Below are positions 36,388 through 45,385 of a stretch of 46,267 bases of DNA, piece after piece (position 1 is the first letter of the stretch; every line of letters begins with the position of its first letter). A model generated the notes under the pieces. The model was not told the DNA's origin and did not search any database. It saw only the letters and a list, made by a program, of their open reading frames with translations. Origin of the DNA: Acidimicrobiaceae bacterium (GTDB taxonomy: Bacteria; Actinomycetota; Acidimicrobiia; Acidimicrobiales; RAAP-2); assembly GCA_003133685.1 (NCBI GenBank), contig PKYQ01000015.1, positions 1,737 to 48,003 on the forward strand, written 5' to 3'. Position numbers and translations under genes: made by a program.

Positions 36388-36417
36388 CCCACCCCCCCCG
36401 GGTAGGACTTTTGAAGA

Positions 36418-36445
36418 GCCGAGTCGGAGACGACTCGGCTTCTTC
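36418..36445 (+). terminator. Rho-independent-type terminator after groEL
   Basis: GCCGAGTCG (36418-36426), GAGA loop, CGACTCGGC (36431-36439): a perfect 9-bp stem, followed by TTCTTC. The T tract is short but the place, 30 bases after the groEL stop, fits. Confidence 0.75.
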
Positions 36446-36654
36446 ATTGGTTACTGAATCTGGTCGTTTGGTTGGCGGCGTTCGTGTTTGGCGCCGTTTG
36501 GCAGTTCCGCCGGGACACAGCGAGAGTGTGATGTCAAGAACGCAAGACTGATGGAACTCACGAAGAACTCTCCACGAAGAAGTCTCCCAATACTGTGTAG
36601 GCGCAAACATTGGGAGCGGCGCGCCAATCCTGAAGAGATCCATTTGCGGCTTAG

Positions 36655-36694
36655 GGAGCGGGCAACGAGAATCGAATTCGCGTTCTCAACTTGG
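36655..36694 (-). repeat. Degenerate tRNA-Gly 3'-end fragment, left of mazEF
   Basis: Read on the minus strand it gives CCAAGTTGAGAACGCG, then AATTCGATTCTCGTTGCCCGCTCC, which follows the last ~40 bases of a tRNA-Gly (anticodon-stem 3' side, T arm, acceptor 3' strand). The 5' half of a tRNA is absent. It is a direct-orientation partner of 37355-37394. The rest of 36440-36725 holds no gene I can support, only a weak CCCAAT/ATTGGG hairpin (36586-36614). Confidence 0.6.
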
Positions 36695-36710
36695 CATACG
36701 GGCATGATTA

Positions 36711-36725
36711 TGCTATAGTTGTGGC
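36711..36725 (+). promoter_or_regulatory. Extended -10 promoter giving leaderless mazE mRNA
   Basis: TGCTATAGT (36711-36719) is an extended -10. Transcription about seven bases downstream would begin at the A of the mazE ATG (36726). No ribosome binding site precedes that ATG, so a leaderless message is likely. Confidence 0.5.
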
Positions 36726-36962
36726 ATGAGTAGGGTACGAGTAAGCACTACGGTCGATGGAGACCTATTAGATGCAGTTCGGCGACTGCGCCCCACTGCA
36801 AATGACGCCACGCTGCTTGACGAGGCGCTCGGCACGCTCGTCGCTCGCAACCGTGCGAGTGAGATTGACGCTGCTTACCTCGCATACGACGAATTCCCGA
36901 TCGAGGAATCCGATGAGTGGGGCAGCCTTGCTGCGTTTCGCGCTGGTGTTGCTGCCTCGTGA
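36726..36962 (+). CDS. MazE-like antitoxin
   Basis: 78 residues: MSRVRVSTTVDGDLLDAVRR, LLDEALGTLVARNRASEIDA, then an acidic tail EFPIEESDEWGSLAAFRAG. A ribbon-helix-helix-like N-terminus plus a toxin-binding tail is the pattern of actinobacterial antitoxins paired with MazF. The toxin gene follows within six bases. The pair is enclosed by tRNA-Gly fragments. Confidence 0.8.
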   Translation: MSRVRVSTTVDGDLLDAVRRLRPTANDATLLDEALGTLVARNRASEIDAAYLAYDEFPIEESDEWGSLAAFRAGVAAS

Positions 36963-36967
36963 CCCCG

Positions 36968-37288
36968 ATGCCGCTGCGAGGAGAAATCTGGTGGTGCGAG
37001 TTGCCCGAGATCCAAAGACGACCCGTGGTAGTGATTTCTCGCGACGCGGCCATCCCAAGATTACGGCGAACGTTGATTGCACCGTGCACAACGACGATTC
37101 GTAATCTTCCAAGCGAAGTCGTCCTTGAGCCAGGAGACGATCCGATTAGTCGCCGGTGCGTGGTCAACCTTGATTCGGTTGAGAGTGTTTCGATTTCGAT
37201 TTTGGTAGAAAGGATTGGACGTCTCAGCGACGGGCGAATGCGCCAGATTTGCTCTGCACTTGATGTTGCGGTCAGTTGTGGAGATTAG
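36968..37288 (+). CDS. MazF-like mRNA interferase toxin
   Basis: 106 residues from ATG 36968 (MPLRGEIWWCELPEIQRRPV). GTG 36959 is in frame and forms GTGA with the antitoxin stop, adding three residues, so it is an alternative. RGEIWW..LP....RPVVVISRDA, LIAPCTTTIRNLPSEVVL and VVNLDSVESVSISILVERIG then LSDGRMRQICSAL are PemK/MazF family blocks. MazF toxins cut single-stranded mRNA at short sequence sites; the specificity here is unknown. Confidence 0.85.
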   Translation: MPLRGEIWWCELPEIQRRPVVVISRDAAIPRLRRTLIAPCTTTIRNLPSEVVLEPGDDPISRRCVVNLDSVESVSISILVERIGRLSDGRMRQICSALDVAVSCGD

Positions 37289-37354
37289 ACCACTCACCGC
37301 ATCGAGGATGAGAAACTCGAATGAACTGATTTGGAATTGAAGTTCAGAAGTTCT

Positions 37355-37394
37355 TGGAGCATGCGACGAGAATCGAACTCACGTTCTCAGCTTG
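37355..37394 (-). repeat. tRNA-Gly 3'-end fragment with CCA, right of mazEF
   Basis: On the minus strand: CAAGCTGAGAACGTGAG, then TTCGATTCTCGTCGCATGCTCCA. This keeps the T arm, a 7-base acceptor strand CGCATGC, a discriminator base and an encoded CCA. No matching 5' half lies within the next 80 bases, so it is not a functional tRNA. It matches 36655-36694 in the same orientation and looks like an attachment-site remnant. Between 37395 and 37560 I see no gene. Confidence 0.62.
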
Positions 37395-37560: not shown

Positions 37561-38763
37561 TCAATCTGACGGCGCGGTGACGCTGGGTGGGGTGGTTCGG
37601 CTTAACGGTCGCAGACCGGCCTCTAACAAAAGCAGTCGTTCGTCGAGTTTGTTTGACTTGTTGAGGGGAAACGCCTTCACCAGTTCTATTCGATTGGGCA
37701 TCATGTTTTCCGGGATGCGTTCTAGGGCCGCGCGACGCAGGTCGAGGGCTGAGGCGCCCCCGTTGGTGACCACGAAGGCGATGATGCCGAGTTCGCCTTC
37801 ACTATCGAAGGTCATACACACGGCGCTGGTGACGCCGGCCAAACTGCCGATTATTTCACTCAGCTCGACGAGCGATATCCGAACCCCGCTGCGCTTAATC
37901 ACGCGGTCGGCGCGGTCCACGTAGACGTAACTGCCGTTCTTATCCCGGTAGACGAGATCGCCCGTGCGGTAGACGGTCTCGCCGGGCACCACGTCGGTGC
38001 GCATGACCTCTTTCGTGAGCGCCGGCGCCCCCCAGTATCCGTCCATTAGTTGATTCCCCCCGATGTACAGTTCGCCGACTCGGTCTGACTCTTCAATGAC
38101 GATTCCCTCTTCGTCCAAGAGGTGAAAGAACACACCGGGATGGGGGTAACCCATCGGCACCGTTCCCTCTTCGATCATGTCTGGTGTCAACTCGAAGTTT
38201 GTGACGGCAATGGTGGTCTCCGTCGGTCCGTAGCGATTGAACGATCGGATCTCTGGCACATAGGACCACAACGGCCGGAGGTCGGCGACGGGAAGGGCTT
38301 TAGCACCCAGTGCGATGATCTCGAGCGCAGAGTCGCCGAGTTCGGCCATCTGTGGGCTAGCGAGCAGAAGACGTAGATAGCTCGGTGTGAAGCCCGAAAA
38401 GTTGATCTTCTCGCGAGCGACCGTGTTGAAGAACGTCGGGGGAAACAACAATGCGTCACGGGGTCGGATGACGACCGCTCCACCGGCGTACAAGGTCGGA
38501 AACAGATTGGCGTAGGAACCGTCGAAGTGGAACGCGGACACACACAGCGTTCGGGTGGCTCGATCGAGGCCGAGCGCGCTTGTCGTCGACTGCACCGCGG
38601 CACCGAAAGCGGCGGTGCCGATCTGCACCCCTTTTGGAGTTTCGGTGGTACCCGATGTGTAAATCATGTAGGCCACTCGCGTTGAAGTATCGACCGGCGC
38701 GGCCAAAGCCGGTTCTTCTGTCCGGAGCGCCGAGATCGGCACCAGCGTGAGTCCGCCGAGCAT
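37561..38763 (-). CDS. AMP-binding adenylation enzyme, N-terminally short
   Basis: 400 residues resembling the larger part of an amino-acid adenylation domain. Present: YMIYTSGTTETPKG (core A3), NRYGPTETTI (A5), ELYIGGNQLMDGYWG (A6), YRTGDLVY (A7), DRADRVIKRSGVRISLVEL (A8) and PLNKSNKLDE (A10 lysine region). Normal enzymes have about 100 more residues before A3. Upstream the frame is open only about 30 codons to a TGA, so the start is either the CAT at 38761-38763 or lost. No carrier or condensation domain adjoins. It may be a decayed NRPS/DltA-type gene or a stand-alone variant. Confidence 0.7.
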   Translation of the reverse strand: MLGGLTLVPISALRTEEPALAAPVDTSTRVAYMIYTSGTTETPKGVQIGTAAFGAAVQSTTSALGLDRATRTLCVSAFHFDGSYANLFPTLYAGGAVVIRPRDALLFPPTFFNTVAREKINFSGFTPSYLRLLLASPQMAELGDSALEIIALGAKALPVADLRPLWSYVPEIRSFNRYGPTETTIAVTNFELTPDMIEEGTVPMGYPHPGVFFHLLDEEGIVIEESDRVGELYIGGNQLMDGYWGAPALTKEVMRTDVVPGETVYRTGDLVYRDKNGSYVYVDRADRVIKRSGVRISLVELSEIIGSLAGVTSAVCMTFDSEGELGIIAFVVTNGGASALDLRRAALERIPENMMPNRIELVKAFPLNKSNKLDERLLLLEAGLRPLSRTTPPSVTAPSD

Positions 38764-39883: not shown

Positions 39884-40852
39884 ATGAAATTATTCAGTTC
39901 AAAACGGAGAATGGCAGTCGTGGGATTGACTGTCGGACTCATCGCAGGGGCAAGCGGGCTCGCAGTGGCCTACTTCACCGCTCAAGGGACGGGCAGCGGA
40001 ACGGGAGTCGTCGGCAATGGTGGGGCTTTCGTCATCACCGCCAACTCTCCAAGTGGCTACTTGTACCCAGACACGGCGGGAACCAACCAAAATGTTGAAA
40101 GTACCGACTATACGGTGACCAACTCGGGTGGCGGAAACGCAGTACTCGACCAGGTGACCATCTCTGTCGCTACTAGCACCGGAGCCGCGTACACGTACAC
40201 GGACAGTGCGGGCGACCCTGCGTGCACCGCGGCCGACTTCTCGATCGATAGCGCCACTCCGGGCACCGCGTTCGTGGACACGTCGCAGGCTGGGACCTAC
40301 ACCGGGGGCCAGGCAAAAACTGGCTCGTTCACGCTCGAGATGATCGACAATGGGCAGAACCAGGACAGCTGTGAAGGACAGACCATTCCGATTTACTTCA
40401 CTACTGGACTTCCGTCAGTTCCGCCCGTAACCGGCGTCATCACCGGCAACAACCTGGGCACCACCACGCTGTACGGGGTAGAGCCGGGCGACACGGGTGG
40501 GTTCTTCCCGAACCCCACCTATTTGACGATTCCGACAGTGTCGAGTAGTACACCCGTAAACCTCAACGTCGGGATATACAACAACTCATATCAACCCAAC
40601 GGATCGATTTCCGTGTCCTACGACAACGCATTTTTGACATTCACGGGAACGTCGGCTGACGGCACCTGTGGGACGCCAACTACGTCGGGGACTAACTCGA
40701 GCGTCACATGCACGTTCACCGACCTGAGCCACAGTACGGTGTCGAAGCCCTTCAACTTCAACACGGCGGGTTCCGGGACGACGACAGCAACCGCGACGGT
40801 AACGCTTGGAACGGACACGGCAACAGAGACATTCGGACTTACCATTAGCTAA
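39884..40852 (+). CDS. Exported protein with SipW-type-like signal region (TasA/CalY-like candidate)
   Basis: 322 residues after an AGGGAGA ribosome binding site. The N-terminal MKLFSSKRRMAVVGLTVGLI, AGASGLAVAYFTAQGTGSGT looks like the signal regions of TasA/CalY-like proteins processed by SipW-type peptidases (hydrophobic stretch ending just before A-Y-F-T). The rest is Thr/Ser/Gly-rich beta-type sequence with paired cysteines (DPACTAADF and QDSCEGQTIP; DGTCGTPTT and VTCTFTD). It is the first of three exported-protein genes reading the same way. Matrix or fibre function is inferred from signal type. Confidence 0.65.
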   Translation: MKLFSSKRRMAVVGLTVGLIAGASGLAVAYFTAQGTGSGTGVVGNGGAFVITANSPSGYLYPDTAGTNQNVESTDYTVTNSGGGNAVLDQVTISVATSTGAAYTYTDSAGDPACTAADFSIDSATPGTAFVDTSQAGTYTGGQAKTGSFTLEMIDNGQNQDSCEGQTIPIYFTTGLPSVPPVTGVITGNNLGTTTLYGVEPGDTGGFFPNPTYLTIPTVSSSTPVNLNVGIYNNSYQPNGSISVSYDNAFLTFTGTSADGTCGTPTTSGTNSSVTCTFTDLSHSTVSKPFNFNTAGSGTTTATATVTLGTDTATETFGLTIS

Positions 40853-40861
40853 TTGCGCGAC

Positions 40862-40946
40862 GCGAGAGTCCAGATATGGACCCTCGCATTGAGCAAGATG
40901 TTTCGGTCGAGGGCCGGATCGTGGAGATGTTCTTCGCGATCCGGCC
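40862..40946 (+). terminator. Two hairpins between exported-protein genes
   Basis: Nine bases after the stop, GCGAGaGTCCA (40862-40872) pairs with TGGACcCTCGC (40877-40887) around GATA with one mismatch. A second stem, GGCCGGATCG (40912-40921) with CGATCCGGCC (40937-40946), is perfect. Neither is followed by a T run, so either attenuation or an RNA-stability role is possible. Confidence 0.5.
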
Positions 40947-41030
40947 GTCAGCCGCCGGTTTATTAGTTTGTTTCTCGAAGTATCCCGAAATACTCGTTCC
41001 GAGATCGCACAGTGACCAAGGGTAGGTGAA

Positions 41031-42815
41031 GTGATTCCATTTAGGGAGGTGAGGAAAATCATCACGGCCAGCGTGGCTGCTCTCGTCCTTGCCAGCCTGT
41101 CGTTCACCACCGCCTACGCATGGGGCGACCATTGGCATCACCACCGTGCTGCCCCCGCCAGCGCGCCGTTCACGATCTCGAGCGCTATCTACACGGCGCC
41201 TCCGGGCGCGTTTCCCGCTTCATCCTGCACGGGGTCGCCCGCACTTCTCTACCCTGGCGTGACTCGCTGCATGGTTTTCAGTGTCCACAATGATTTGAGT
41301 CGACCGATCACCGTCGAGAACATCGCAAGTGGCCTCAGTTCTGCTTTTCCAACTCCTCCGGCGGTATGTTCCGGGTCGAACCTCAGTCTCCCAGCGTTTT
41401 CTGGCACCCTTGTCGTGCCCGGCGGCGCGACCATCGTCGGGCCAGGACTACCAATTTCCCTGAAGGAGAGCCACTCCAACCAGGACGCGTGTAAAAACCT
41501 GACGTATCACTTCTCATTTACCGGTACGGCGCTCTATACCGATGCCACGTCGACCGTGCTGACGTCGTCGCCTGACCCCTCCACGTTCGATAAGCCGGTG
41601 ACATTCACGGCCGTGATCACGGCGGCCAGCGCTAGCACGGATTCGAGCCTCCCAACGGGATCGGTTACCTTCTCTCAGTGTTCGACGTCCGCGTGCGTCA
41701 CGTCTACCCCGCTCGGGACCGGAATTATCGGGAATAGCGGGCAGGCCTCCTTCACCACTACAGGTCTTCCCGCGGGTACGACCTACGTCGAGGCGGTCTA
41801 CGCCGGGGCGAGTACTAACTTCACCGGCTCGACGTCCAACGTGGTCACCCAAGTCGTTCGCTCGACGCTGACGGGCACCTCGACAGCCCTCACCACGTCG
41901 CCCAACCCTTCGTTTGTGGGTGATTCGGTGTCGTTGACCGCGACGGTGGCGAGTCTCGCCAATCCATTGCCTCATCCCGCTCCCGTCACGGGAACGGTCG
42001 ACTTCTTCACGGGAACGCCGACCGGGACACACACGCTCCTCGGCAGCGGCCCGCTCAACACGGGAGAGAAGGTCATCATCTCTACCTCGTCGCTGCCGCT
42101 TGGCACGACGAATCTCTATGCCGTGTACGTCGGTACCACCACGTTCGCCTCAAGCACGTCGCCCGCGGTGGCCCAGCAGGTGATTGCTCGAGTGTCAGAC
42201 TGTCGCGGGAGTTACTCTCGGTGGTGGGTGGGGGGACCTGGCTGGTCGTCCTATCGCGGCTCGAACGTGAACAACTTCTTCTACGCCCCAAATGGCTCAT
42301 ACCACGTCAACGGTCAAAATGGGAACGACTGTTTCGATGGCGGAGACGGTGACAACTGGTTCAACGACGGCAACGGTTCGGTCGATGTGTACGGCGGGAA
42401 CGGCAGCAACCACATCACTCTGGGCGACGGTGACGACAGCGTGAACGTGGGAAACGGCTCGAACACGATTTGGGCTGGCAACGGCGATGACGGAGTGAAC
42501 GTCGGGAGCGGTAGCCATAATCAGCTCACGTTCGGCAACGGCAACGACAATGTGACTCTCGGGAGCGGATCTCAGAATCAGATCACGCTAGGGAGCGGCC
42601 CCGACACCGTAACCATCCAAGGCGGCAGTCAGGACTTCATCACCGGCGGACATGGCAACGAAAAGGTCTACCTCGGTGCGGGCACCAATCAGACGTACGT
42701 CGGCGCTAGCCATCAAACCGATATCTGCTATCTCCCGGCACCGCCCTCATCGTGGCACGGAACGGCCGCCGCGTACTACCACGACACGCTAACGAACTGC
42801 TCGGTGGTGAGCTAA
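41031..42815 (+). CDS. Secreted protein: Ig-like repeats plus RTX-like Gly/Asn repeats
   Basis: 594 residues from GTG 41031 after GGTAGG. A classical signal peptide (KIITASVAALVLASLSFTTAYA) ends at Ala-Tyr-Ala. Two Ig-like domains of the Big_3_5 type follow (STVLTSSPDPSTFDKPVTFT and STALTTSPNPSFVGDSVSLT, each with TGSVTF/TGTVDFF). The C-terminal ~140 residues are short Gly/Asn/Asp repeats (GNGSNHITLGDGDDSVNVG, GNGNDNVTLGSGSQNQITLG) like a calcium-binding or ice-binding-type beta-roll or solenoid. Cysteines flank this region. Likely cell-surface. The TAA overlaps the next ATG by one base. Confidence 0.72.
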   Translation: MIPFREVRKIITASVAALVLASLSFTTAYAWGDHWHHHRAAPASAPFTISSAIYTAPPGAFPASSCTGSPALLYPGVTRCMVFSVHNDLSRPITVENIASGLSSAFPTPPAVCSGSNLSLPAFSGTLVVPGGATIVGPGLPISLKESHSNQDACKNLTYHFSFTGTALYTDATSTVLTSSPDPSTFDKPVTFTAVITAASASTDSSLPTGSVTFSQCSTSACVTSTPLGTGIIGNSGQASFTTTGLPAGTTYVEAVYAGASTNFTGSTSNVVTQVVRSTLTGTSTALTTSPNPSFVGDSVSLTATVASLANPLPHPAPVTGTVDFFTGTPTGTHTLLGSGPLNTGEKVIISTSSLPLGTTNLYAVYVGTTTFASSTSPAVAQQVIARVSDCRGSYSRWWVGGPGWSSYRGSNVNNFFYAPNGSYHVNGQNGNDCFDGGDGDNWFNDGNGSVDVYGGNGSNHITLGDGDDSVNVGNGSNTIWAGNGDDGVNVGSGSHNQLTFGNGNDNVTLGSGSQNQITLGSGPDTVTIQGGSQDFITGGHGNEKVYLGAGTNQTYVGASHQTDICYLPAPPSSWHGTAAAYYHDTLTNCSVVS

Positions 42816-45385
42816 TGAGCAAGAAAGACGAGAAGGTGCCTCGGAGTAAGGGCTCAAGATTCGCGAAATTCGTTGTCGGGACTTGTGCTGTCGTTGTGAC
42901 TCTCGGCGTCGGTGTCGCAGCGTGGAGCTACTTCACGTCCACGGCCCACGGCGTCGCGAATGTCCCAGTGAGCACACTCAATCCTCCCACGAACGTGGCG
43001 GCGACGTTTCCGAATCCCGACGTGCGTACGGTGGACGTTTCGTGGAGTGCCGCCAGCCAAGTCCCCGGCCTCAACGTCGATGGCTACTATGTGCAACGCG
43101 AACTAGGGAGCTCCAAGCAAGCAGTCTGCGGATCGTCCCCTTCGTCATTGATTACCACGCTTTCCTGCCAGGACTCGAAGGTCGATTCCAGTGCCTACAC
43201 GTACGTGGTCACGGCCGTCTTCCGGACGTGGCACGCGAGCAGCACGAGCAACTCCGTCACAGTGCCGGCTCCCGTGTTGGCCACTCTCGTCGTGTCGCCA
43301 ATTACCTCGTCGCCAACCGCTGGGGTTTCCTTTGGCGTCGGGCTCAGCGGTTACGACCAGTACGGCGCTATCGACGCCAACTACACGGGCACTCAATGCG
43401 TGACATTCGGCGGCGCGAGCAACGCGCCGGGTGGTCGCGCACCGAGCTATCCGACGAACGGCTCTTGTTCGGGCGGTTCGGCAGTCGCATTCGCGCATGG
43501 TGTCGCCACCGGCGTGAACGCGGCTTCGGTGACGCTGTACGACGCGCGAAGCACGGAACTCACGGCAACCGACGCCGTAACCAGCATCTCCGGCGAGGCG
43601 AGTTTCCTGGTCGCGCCCCATTCTCTCAATTCCTTTACGGTCACCAGCACGAACTCCACGCCGATCGCCGGCGGCTCTTTCAGCGTGGGCATCACTGCTT
43701 ACGATGCCTACGGCAACGTCGACACGAGTTACACCGGCAATCAATGTCTCACGTTCTCCGGCGCTTCCAATGCGCCTGGCGGAGCGGCGCCGACGTATCC
43801 TTCTGTCTATTCATGCGGCGCGGGCAACTCGTCAGTGACGTTCACGAATGGTCTCGCGAACGTACCCGTACAGTTGTACGACGCCCAGGACGTCACGCTT
43901 AGCGCAACCGACGTCGCGAGCGGCCACTACGGCTGGATCAGCCTCAGTGTGGTTCCCGCCGCGCTCGGCACCTTTCACGTCATGGCCAATGCGCCCGCGA
44001 CGGCGGGCAACTCGTTCGGACTGGCCCTCACCGGCTATGACCAATATGGCAACCTGGACACCAACTACACGGGCAGCCACTGTGTCGTCTTTAGCGGTCC
44101 CGGCGATGCACCTGATGGCACCACGCCGACCTATCCGGGCGGGGCCGGGTGTTCGAAGGGCTCAGCGCTCACCTTCAACAACGGCGCCGCCAACGGCTCG
44201 CACATCGTGCCGGTGACGCTCTACGACGCCGAGACGGTCCCGCTCGTCGCGACCGATGTCGCGACGTCCTCCTCGGGATCGGTCGACGTCACGGTGGCTC
44301 CCGCCATTCTCGATCACCTTGGCGTCAACGCTCCGGCGACGCCCACTGCCGGTGTCCCCTTCAGTGTTGGACTCACGGCCTACGACCAGTACAACAACGT
44401 GGACACGAACTACACAGGAAGTCAGTGCGTGGCCTTTAGCGGACCGTCGAGCTCGCCCGGTCGTACGGCACCTACCTATCCAGGGGGGTGTTCAAGTGGT
44501 TCGAGTGTCAACTTTGCGAATGGTCTCGCCACCGATGCCAACGCCCCGAGTATCACTCTTTACGACTCCCAGAGTGTGAATTTGGCGGCGACGGACGTGC
44601 CAAGCGGTAGTGCTGGATCCGCGAGTGTCGAGGTTGGTTCGAGCACGCTGAGCTCCTTCAACCTCTCATCTACCACCACGCCGACCGCGGGCACGGTCTT
44701 CAAGGTCGTCCTCACCGCCGATGACCAGTACGGCAATGTGGCCACGAACTACTCGGGTAACAAATGCATCATCTTCTCTGGTCCAGATAACGCGCCCAAC
44801 GGCAGCGTGCCGCTCTATCCGGCCAATGGTTCGTGTTCGAGTGCGAACGCGTCGCAGATGACCTTTGTCGCAGGTGTGGCGTCGGGTTCCAACGCCGCGA
44901 ACGTTTCGCTCTATGACGCTGAGAACACGACGCTCACCGCGACCGATCAGTCGACGAGTGACGTTGGCACGCAGGCACTGACCGTGAGCGTTGGCGCCAA
45001 CGTCGGGGGTATTCAGTTGGCGCAAATTTCACAAAACGCGTCGCCATCCGTCGCGTGCGTGGGCCCGGCCGACGCGGCGAGTTGCACGTCATCGGGCGAG
45101 GGTGCGACGGTCGGCGAAACGCTGACCGCATCCTTGCAACTGGTCGACGCGTTCGGCAACACATTCGTAAACCAGACGGGCGCTGCGGTGACCGTCGATC
45201 TTGCCGCGACCGGTCAGGGGACCGTGTCGCCGACGGTACCCGGAACGCTGTCAGTTTCGAACGGTCAGTCAACGACGACGAATTCCTTCACCTTGGTTCC
45301 CAATGACGGTGTCGGCAATAGCGTCACGATGACCGCGACATTGGATGCGACGGGCCAGACGCTCACGATCACTCTGAATAGTTGA
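42815..45385 (+). CDS. Large exported protein with five ~115-aa repeats
   Basis: 856 residues from ATG 42815 (TAATG overlap with the upstream gene). The N-terminus MSKKDEKVPRSKGSRFAKFV then a hydrophobic segment ending AAWSYFTSTAHG resembles SipW-type signals, as at 39884. A fibronectin-III-like domain follows (NPPTNVAATFPNPDVRTVDV, VDGYYVQRE). Then come five tandem domains, each with SFGVGL.GYDQYGN.D.NYTG, a C..FSG...APGG..P.YP block and VTLYDA....L.ATD, and a final Ig-like domain. Each repeat has paired cysteines. Probably an extracellular adhesin or matrix component. Confidence 0.72.
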   Translation: MSKKDEKVPRSKGSRFAKFVVGTCAVVVTLGVGVAAWSYFTSTAHGVANVPVSTLNPPTNVAATFPNPDVRTVDVSWSAASQVPGLNVDGYYVQRELGSSKQAVCGSSPSSLITTLSCQDSKVDSSAYTYVVTAVFRTWHASSTSNSVTVPAPVLATLVVSPITSSPTAGVSFGVGLSGYDQYGAIDANYTGTQCVTFGGASNAPGGRAPSYPTNGSCSGGSAVAFAHGVATGVNAASVTLYDARSTELTATDAVTSISGEASFLVAPHSLNSFTVTSTNSTPIAGGSFSVGITAYDAYGNVDTSYTGNQCLTFSGASNAPGGAAPTYPSVYSCGAGNSSVTFTNGLANVPVQLYDAQDVTLSATDVASGHYGWISLSVVPAALGTFHVMANAPATAGNSFGLALTGYDQYGNLDTNYTGSHCVVFSGPGDAPDGTTPTYPGGAGCSKGSALTFNNGAANGSHIVPVTLYDAETVPLVATDVATSSSGSVDVTVAPAILDHLGVNAPATPTAGVPFSVGLTAYDQYNNVDTNYTGSQCVAFSGPSSSPGRTAPTYPGGCSSGSSVNFANGLATDANAPSITLYDSQSVNLAATDVPSGSAGSASVEVGSSTLSSFNLSSTTTPTAGTVFKVVLTADDQYGNVATNYSGNKCIIFSGPDNAPNGSVPLYPANGSCSSANASQMTFVAGVASGSNAANVSLYDAENTTLTATDQSTSDVGTQALTVSVGANVGGIQLAQISQNASPSVACVGPADAASCTSSGEGATVGETLTASLQLVDAFGNTFVNQTGAAVTVDLAATGQGTVSPTVPGTLSVSNGQSTTTNSFTLVPNDGVGNSVTMTATLDATGQTLTITLNS
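43286..45010 (+). repeat. Five tandem ~340-bp coding repeats
   Basis: Repeat starts near 43286, 43637, 43976, 44321 and 44660 (lengths 351, 339, 345, 339 and about 350). They are clear at protein level (YDQYGN, NYTG, YPGG..C, TLYDA, ATD) but diverged in DNA, so the array is old rather than freshly duplicated. Confidence 0.75.

Follow-up and report, generated by a model that had tools for sequence, protein, structure and literature searches.

A toxin-antitoxin pair bounded by tRNA-Gly remnants: a probable decayed, cis-mobilizable mazEF cassette from a tRNA-Gly(CCC) insertion array

The stretch of DNA analysed here (the window) comprises 46,267 nucleotides of an Acidimicrobiaceae bacterium (GenBank assembly GCA_003133685.1, contig PKYQ01000015.1). 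A block at positions 36655-37394 holds a mazEF-type toxin-antitoxin (TA) pair between two partial tRNA genes, and we consider it probable, at roughly 78%, that this block is a decayed, non-autonomous (cis-mobilizable) cassette that carries mazEF alone and stems from an insertion array at tRNA-Gly(CCC). It is the smallest of such cassettes seen here. A preliminary description of the window had proposed a minimal or decayed integrative island at this position. The decayed cassette with its unit ends stands, whereas the word integrative claims too much, because the unit has neither an integrase nor arm repeats and is at best mobilizable by others.

The two tRNA fragments (36655-36693 and 37356-37394) are direct repeats of 39 bp each, 85% alike, on the same strand and 701 bp apart from start to start, close to the 40 bp and 700 bp first estimated. 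Aligned with the tRNAs of their own genome (28 distinct tRNAs; the genome listing has 48 tRNA hits), both found tRNA-Gly(CCC) as their best and only match at E 1e-4, over positions 34-73 at 92.5% identity for the 36655 copy and positions 35-66 at 96.9% for the 37356 copy. The assignment to the 3' part of tRNA-Gly was therefore borne out; on this tRNA both remnants extend from the anticodon to the acceptor end, with the tRNA sense on the minus strand. The proximal copy (37356) encodes CCA, as had been read, and corresponds to the place of an intact tRNA gene in a related genome (G015); in the distal copy (36655) CCA has degraded to CCC. Equally, no match to a 5' half was found among the genome's own tRNAs at either remnant, again as described, and neither ARAGORN nor Rfam called a tRNA at the block, which is expected since only tRNA halves are present there.

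Chance similarity or an assembly artefact might be suspected in a draft genome, the more so as many of the remnants in relatives lie near contig ends. We regard this as exceedingly improbable, because the block is internal to a contig of 146 kb, the unit recurs in other genomes, and shuffled and reversed controls were empty. The 23-bp core of the 37356 copy, allowing up to three mismatches, found only the two remnants within the window and nothing in 100 dinucleotide shuffles. Genome-wide, the remnant pattern had six matches, namely one intact gene and five remnants, with none in the reversed control. The intact tRNA-Gly(CCC) gene lies on a contig other than that of the window (G000:C26:10995-11068, G000 being the window's own genome), and remnants lacking a 5' half were located outside the window at C26:2986-3032, C26:7557-7599 and C11:22993-23030. 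Two further observations concern this genome. On C11, a gene for a PIN-domain protein and a partner of weak MazE/AbrB likeness (L037 6267-6963) stand some 2 kb away from a solitary tRNA-Gly(CCC) remnant; a second tRNA type suspected in the same locus from a translated open reading frame (ORF) was not confirmed against the 28 tRNAs. On C26, an open frame of 796 residues adjoins a tRNA-Gly remnant (L036 460-2850); by eye it resembles recombinase and transposase parts, and it had no Pfam match at E 0.001.

The genes between the remnants were recognised from ORFs, Pfam and dN/dS, and for the toxin also from the PDB, and they confirm that the fragments bracket a mazEF-type pair. The gene in the mazE position (36726-36962, plus strand, 78 aa) resembles VapB weakly (E 0.07, below the cut-off) and has no NCBIfam match. 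The toxin gene (36917-37288, plus strand, 123 aa, GTG start) overlaps it and encodes a MazF/PemK-type protein that matches PF02452 at E 5e-17, above the cut-off, and MazF3 in the PDB at E 2e-7; the NCBIfam MazF equivalog matched below its cut-off only. The arrangement, a PF02452 toxin overlapping a small upstream gene, is that of MazEF/PemIK type II systems, from which this pair differs in the weak family match of its antitoxin, in its tRNA boundaries and in a promoter-like site that reaches into one of them. The block has a G+C content of 54%, against 63% for groEL. Between genomes, dN/dS was 0.11-0.18 for the antitoxin gene (eight comparisons) and 0.08-0.14 for the toxin gene (seven comparisons; an eighth, over 27 codons, gave 0.27), values that carry no significance test and come from overlapping genes. 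Both mazEF genes are under purifying selection between genomes, and it is plausible that the block is kept by its addiction module (dN/dS about 0.1).

The unit is present in 12 of the 99 genomes of the genus, its own included, and in two of the others its homology starts and stops at the remnants amid non-matching surroundings. In G009 the match covers 36655-37107 and 37217-37394 (89 and 86% identity, with two Ns and about 109 bp missing between) and ends exactly at the remnants on both sides; this copy stands in a row of same-strand remnants, 17.8 kb from an intact tRNA-Gly(CCC) gene on the same contig. In G015 the match runs over 36655-37299 and is followed by 14 bp and then by an intact tRNA-Gly(CCC) gene, the other end being a remnant; the G015 copy is thus located at a tRNA gene, and the window block is not. 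The G070 unit is flanked by a remnant on either side, the second of which lies where a contig begins, and the start-to-start spacing is 701 bp in G000, 660 bp in G015, 594 bp in G009 and 1043 bp in G070. With G083 and G008, which have one adjacent remnant each, an adjacent remnant or tRNA-Gly end is found in six of the 12 genomes. In G028 the unit has a strongly decayed remnant (12 mismatches in 36) at one end, and at the other, by eye, istB-like or insertion-sequence-like genes instead of a remnant; a PIN/Phd pair lies beside mazEF, and a similar pair was read by eye in G007. A remnant cut by an assembly gap at the end of the G007 unit was rejected, as the sequence there has no gap and only a short tRNA-end-like stretch.

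Sites of this kind were counted across the genus. Among 61 of its genomes, a 26-base pattern of the 3' half matched 120 times, in 47 genomes, whereas a 5'-half pattern matched 47 times, in 43 genomes. The stretches fetched from among the 120 hits, chosen to favour sites with neighbours and with the tested ORFs likewise chosen, hold 80 sites, comprising 23 intact genes, 53 remnants and four sites at contig edges. All 23 of the 5' halves in the examined stretches had their 3' half, and neighbouring sites were on the same strand in 32 of 32 pairs. The longest array (G028:C59, L120 7233-12257) consists of an intact tRNA-Gly(CCC) gene followed by remnants after 1828, 981, 1278 and 901 bp. Its first cassette encodes a DUF4143 ATPase and the other three encode small proteins with no Pfam or NCBIfam match above the cut-off. 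Single-sequence AlphaFold2 models reached a pLDDT of 58 for L120:10322-10615, with no Foldseek match at E 0.001, and of 50 for L120:9646-9918; as no family identity was found, we do not call these small proteins TA pairs. TA genes, identified by Pfam or as mazEF by homology, occur in at least 10 of the 32 intervals, a lower bound counted without control intervals. They are mazEF in the window, L077, L078, L080, L127 and L128; PIN/Phd together with mazEF in L121; Gp49 or HigB with helix-turn-helix genes in L036 and L145; and Phd/ParE in L131.

Conserved arms were found beside many of these sites. When the flanks of 81 sites were sorted into single-linkage BLAST groups, in which some members are weakly similar, the CCA side gave two groups of 21 and 18 sites (39 of 81 sites with arms), then groups of 3, 2, 2 and 2 and 33 single flanks. 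On the anticodon side one group held the 23 intact genes and another six mazEF units, followed by groups of 3, 2, 2, 2 and 2, with 37 single. Iterated AGTGGCGAA-like repeats mark the first of the two large CCA-side groups, TGGGCAC- and TGGTCACT-like repeats the second, and such repeats resemble the arm sites expected of tyrosine-recombinase attachment sites. Both arm classes are common to unrelated cargo across several genomes of the genus (L036, L037, L120, L124, L127 and L145, among others), and the second takes in sites whose interval or stretch holds an integrase family (L129, L130, L134 and L144).

This family of tyrosine recombinases (PF00589) is encoded in 39 of the 99 genomes, the window's own included, and scores far below the cut-offs of the XerA, XerC and integron-integrase models. 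Of the 30 integrase loci examined, 12 have a tRNA-Gly gene no more than about 1.5 kb away (four CCC, eight TCC), and none has another tRNA there. In G081 an intact tRNA-Gly(CCC) gene is followed by 12.3 kb with a PF00589 integrase and then by a 3' remnant, and in G007 an integrase in two pieces stands about 0.8 kb from mazEF. The comparison drawn in the preliminary description with direct repeats left by integrases at tRNA 3' ends is supported, in that remnants bound the unit elsewhere in the genus and an integrase family beside tRNA-Gly genes exists. Separately, locus L121 (5145-9968, G028:C58) holds, between two tRNA-Gly remnants, genes for tyrosine recombinases of 825 and 409 aa along with one further gene, beside genes that look istB-like by eye.

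The block itself has no integrase or recombinase gene according to its ORFs, Pfam and three recombinase queries, and only mazEF fits the space. A minimal integrative island of 0.7 kb that moves on its own would agree with the precise boundaries and with the G015 unit directly behind an intact tRNA-Gly(CCC) gene; in the strict sense the missing recombinase gene refutes it, and its CCA-side flank lacks the arm repeats common to 39 of 81 sites, so that we consider it very unlikely. An integrative and conjugative element (ICE), an integrative and mobilizable element (IME) or an autonomous island encodes an integrase, and the block encodes none. The cis-mobilizable elements (CIMEs) summarised in PMC5704250 have two attachment sites and no integration or transfer genes, can lie in tandem where a target gene, for example one for a tRNA, has its 3' end, and are described there as decayed ICEs or IMEs. 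The window block resembles them in being flanked by attL/attR-like sites of the target gene without integration or transfer genes of its own; it differs in its cargo, one TA pair of about 0.66 kb, and in that no parent element was identified. Judged from its sequence, the block has the structural features of a cis-mobilizable element, with a putative origin by decay and a putative function of its sites.

We propose that tyrosine recombinases cutting in the anticodon region of tRNA-Gly would insert elements into the 3' half of tRNA-Gly(CCC), and that the two ends of the mazEF unit may be copies of the recombinase attachment site. The incoming element would supply a new 3' half that restores the tRNA gene, displacing the old 3' half to its far end, and repeated insertion would build tandem arrays of cassettes separated by 3' halves. 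Elements that had lost, or never had, an integrase would stay as cassettes and leave only with help. The mazEF unit would once have stood in such an array and later have come to lie beside groEL, away from a tRNA gene, through insertion at a secondary site or a rearrangement carrying a piece of the array. We infer the events of excision and insertion themselves, the action of an integrase either in trans or on a composite array, and the loss of movement in the window copy; mobility in trans is an assumption here, because the unit and most intervals are without a detected recombinase.

Several observations weigh against this account. On the CCA side, the flank of the mazEF unit itself falls into neither arm class; the window unit counts as unarmed, and its attachment-like sites are mismatched and without arm repeats. 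Five of the 12 unit genomes (G007, G036, G078, G081 and G027) had no adjacent remnant in the stretch examined. With the three recombinase queries, 13 of the 15 intervals that have an arm and all 17 that have none gave no match, and one of the two armed intervals with a match (L121) was itself the source of two of the queries. The integrase family is absent, at E 1e-30, from four of the 12 mazEF genomes (G015, G027, G078 and G028, which has the longest array), and this absence speaks against a simple one-integrase picture. No tRNA lies within 1.5 kb of the integrase in the window's own genome (57% identity, C10:75613-76695). A parent element carrying mazEF together with an intact integrase was not found. 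Neither an empty site, beside groEL or at the C11 remnant, nor an excised circle was seen; no viral contig had an exact match to the one remnant pattern searched; and positions 36410-36654 were covered by none among the matches listed. Every genome used is a draft, in most cases assembled from a metagenome, and the ends of arrays often fall at the ends of contigs.

The surroundings of the block bear on the last step of the proposal. At 21 groEL loci from relatives (18 of the same genus, three of the same order) we found no downstream remnant and no window-like DNA beyond 36392, over downstream stretches of 0.8-1.6 kb in 19 loci and about 10 kb in two. Two same-genus loci (L061 and L068) have a common neighbour downstream of groEL, unlike that of the window. 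On the other side, the unit adjoins a truncated gene for an AMP-binding (adenylation) protein (37561-38763, minus strand), identified by Pfam and by comparison with G028, whose homologue shares a contig with a tRNA-Gly remnant and mazEF. Over 1251 bp the window copy, which is missing the first 117 residues, has 94% identity to its G028 counterpart, against 79.5% over 889 bp for groEL, and these figures suggest that this gene was recently transferred and truncated. A larger array may have been broken by insertion sequences or rearrangement, and a piece of it carried passively to groEL. Compatible with the cassette origin as a whole and concerned with its final step alone, this course of events falls only a little short of even odds. 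It would account for the missing tRNA gene beside groEL and for the shortened adenylation gene so similar to one that shares a G028 contig with a remnant and mazEF, and it recalls the G028 unit, where istB-like genes (by eye) stand in place of a remnant; the window itself holds no direct trace of the breaking event.

At the distal remnant, a motif scan placed a promoter-like site (TTGGCA-17-TATAGT, 36691-36719, plus strand) whose -35 box takes its first three bases from the end of the tRNA remnant. Between the two boxes we read an imperfect palindrome, GCATGATTATGC (36702-36713, no strand assigned), possibly an autoregulatory operator. One promoter-like match in the block, set against a mean of 0.5 in shuffles, is weak by itself. 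Compared over nine units, the -35 box reads TTGGNA or TGGGAA at six of the seven that have a remnant next to them (including G028 with its decayed one), G070 being the exception. The total promoter score is the same, 8 of 12, in G007, which has no remnant, as in G070, G009 and G008, so that the tRNA part is dispensable for a similar score; the overlapping site is a candidate promoter. The overlap lends some substance to the idea that the tRNA 3' halves are functional repeats, for example parts of promoters or terminators, that were taken into use at these genes and spread without site-specific recombination. We hold this to be highly improbable, since the remnants bound many unrelated genes, keep to one strand per array and begin at the anticodon region, conserved arms stand beside the CCA end at 39 of 81 sites, and the block lacks a terminator-like hairpin.

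Precedents exist in cis-mobilizable elements, in islands that lie in tandem and in cassettes marked by repeats of tRNA ends. Additive flexible genomic islands whose cassettes carry direct repeats of tRNA ends are described in the available parts of reports on 'Candidatus Actinomarinales' (PMC7771536) and on Methylophilaceae (PMC10872708), in the latter with sizes from 330 bp to 42 kb. Their cargo, as given in these parts, is envelope, transport or metabolic; for Actinomarinales, TA systems are reported not to be identifiable, and the main text on Methylophilaceae does not use the word toxin. The arrays described here differ in their TA content. In Dehalococcoides, according to PMC3146451, islands lie in tandem behind one RNA gene, ssrA, with 3'-end repeats between them, and 15 without an integration module are discussed as possible cis-mobilizable elements; serine recombinases, tmRNA and reductive dehalogenase cargo there contrast with tyrosine recombinases and tRNA-Gly here. 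Among the titles and abstract openings listed in searches of the open-licence literature we found no description of TA-only cassettes bounded by tRNA remnants. Unusual features are the TA-only size of about 0.66 kb, a single tRNA gene followed by an array of cassettes 0.9-1.8 kb long, the two arm classes common to unrelated cargo, and a promoter-like site at mazEF with part of its -35 box inside a tRNA remnant.

The block offers a clean case of about the smallest conceivable mobile cargo, a lone TA pair, with cassette boundaries of the kind made by a recombinase. It suggests that transport aboard large elements is not the sole route open to TA pairs, which can also travel as cassettes. At the tRNA-Gly(CCC) locus, unrelated cassettes with common conserved arms mostly have no detected recombinase of their own, and the movement of additive-island cassettes without their own integrase becomes directly testable. 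Integrons, too, are arrays of small cassettes, TA pairs among them, that are moved by one recombinase in trans. The sites here differ in being tRNA 3' halves with arm repeats instead of attC sites as these are generally defined (no attC search was made), and no integron integrase was identified. A bolder reading, which we put forward tentatively and think unlikely, takes tRNA-Gly(CCC) of this actinobacterial genus as the entry site of an integron-like system. In it, unrelated cassettes without an integrase, often TA pairs, would each have one of two conserved recombination sites, a tRNA 3' half joined to an arm of iterated repeats; a small number of tyrosine recombinases would move them in trans, and their promoters could draw on the tRNA core, which would then be attachment site and -35 box at once.

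MazF relatives were surveyed at 50 loci, 10 of them in the genus, and three of the 40 others show a remnant of another tRNA; a T-arm scan made no remnant visible at the remaining non-genus loci (reversed control 0). In an Acidimicrobiaceae metagenome-assembled genome (L178 2865-4687), tRNA-Glu(CTC) is followed by mazF and a 41-bp tRNA-Glu 3' remnant at 97.6% identity. In the isolate genome of Geodermatophilus sabuli DSM 46844 (L187 1258-6707), the order is tRNA-Gly(TCC), 4.7 kb, mazF and then a remnant of 46 bp (87% identity), and at L217 (5191-6312) tRNA-Glu and mazF have a tRNA-Glu remnant of 33 bp between them. Other MazF relatives are found a few hundred bases from a tmRNA gene (L184 5257-5617) or a tRNA-Val gene (L201 5564-5638). 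Finally, downstream of the block in the window, positions 39884-45385 hold a run of large open frames that by eye resemble exported, repeat-rich proteins.
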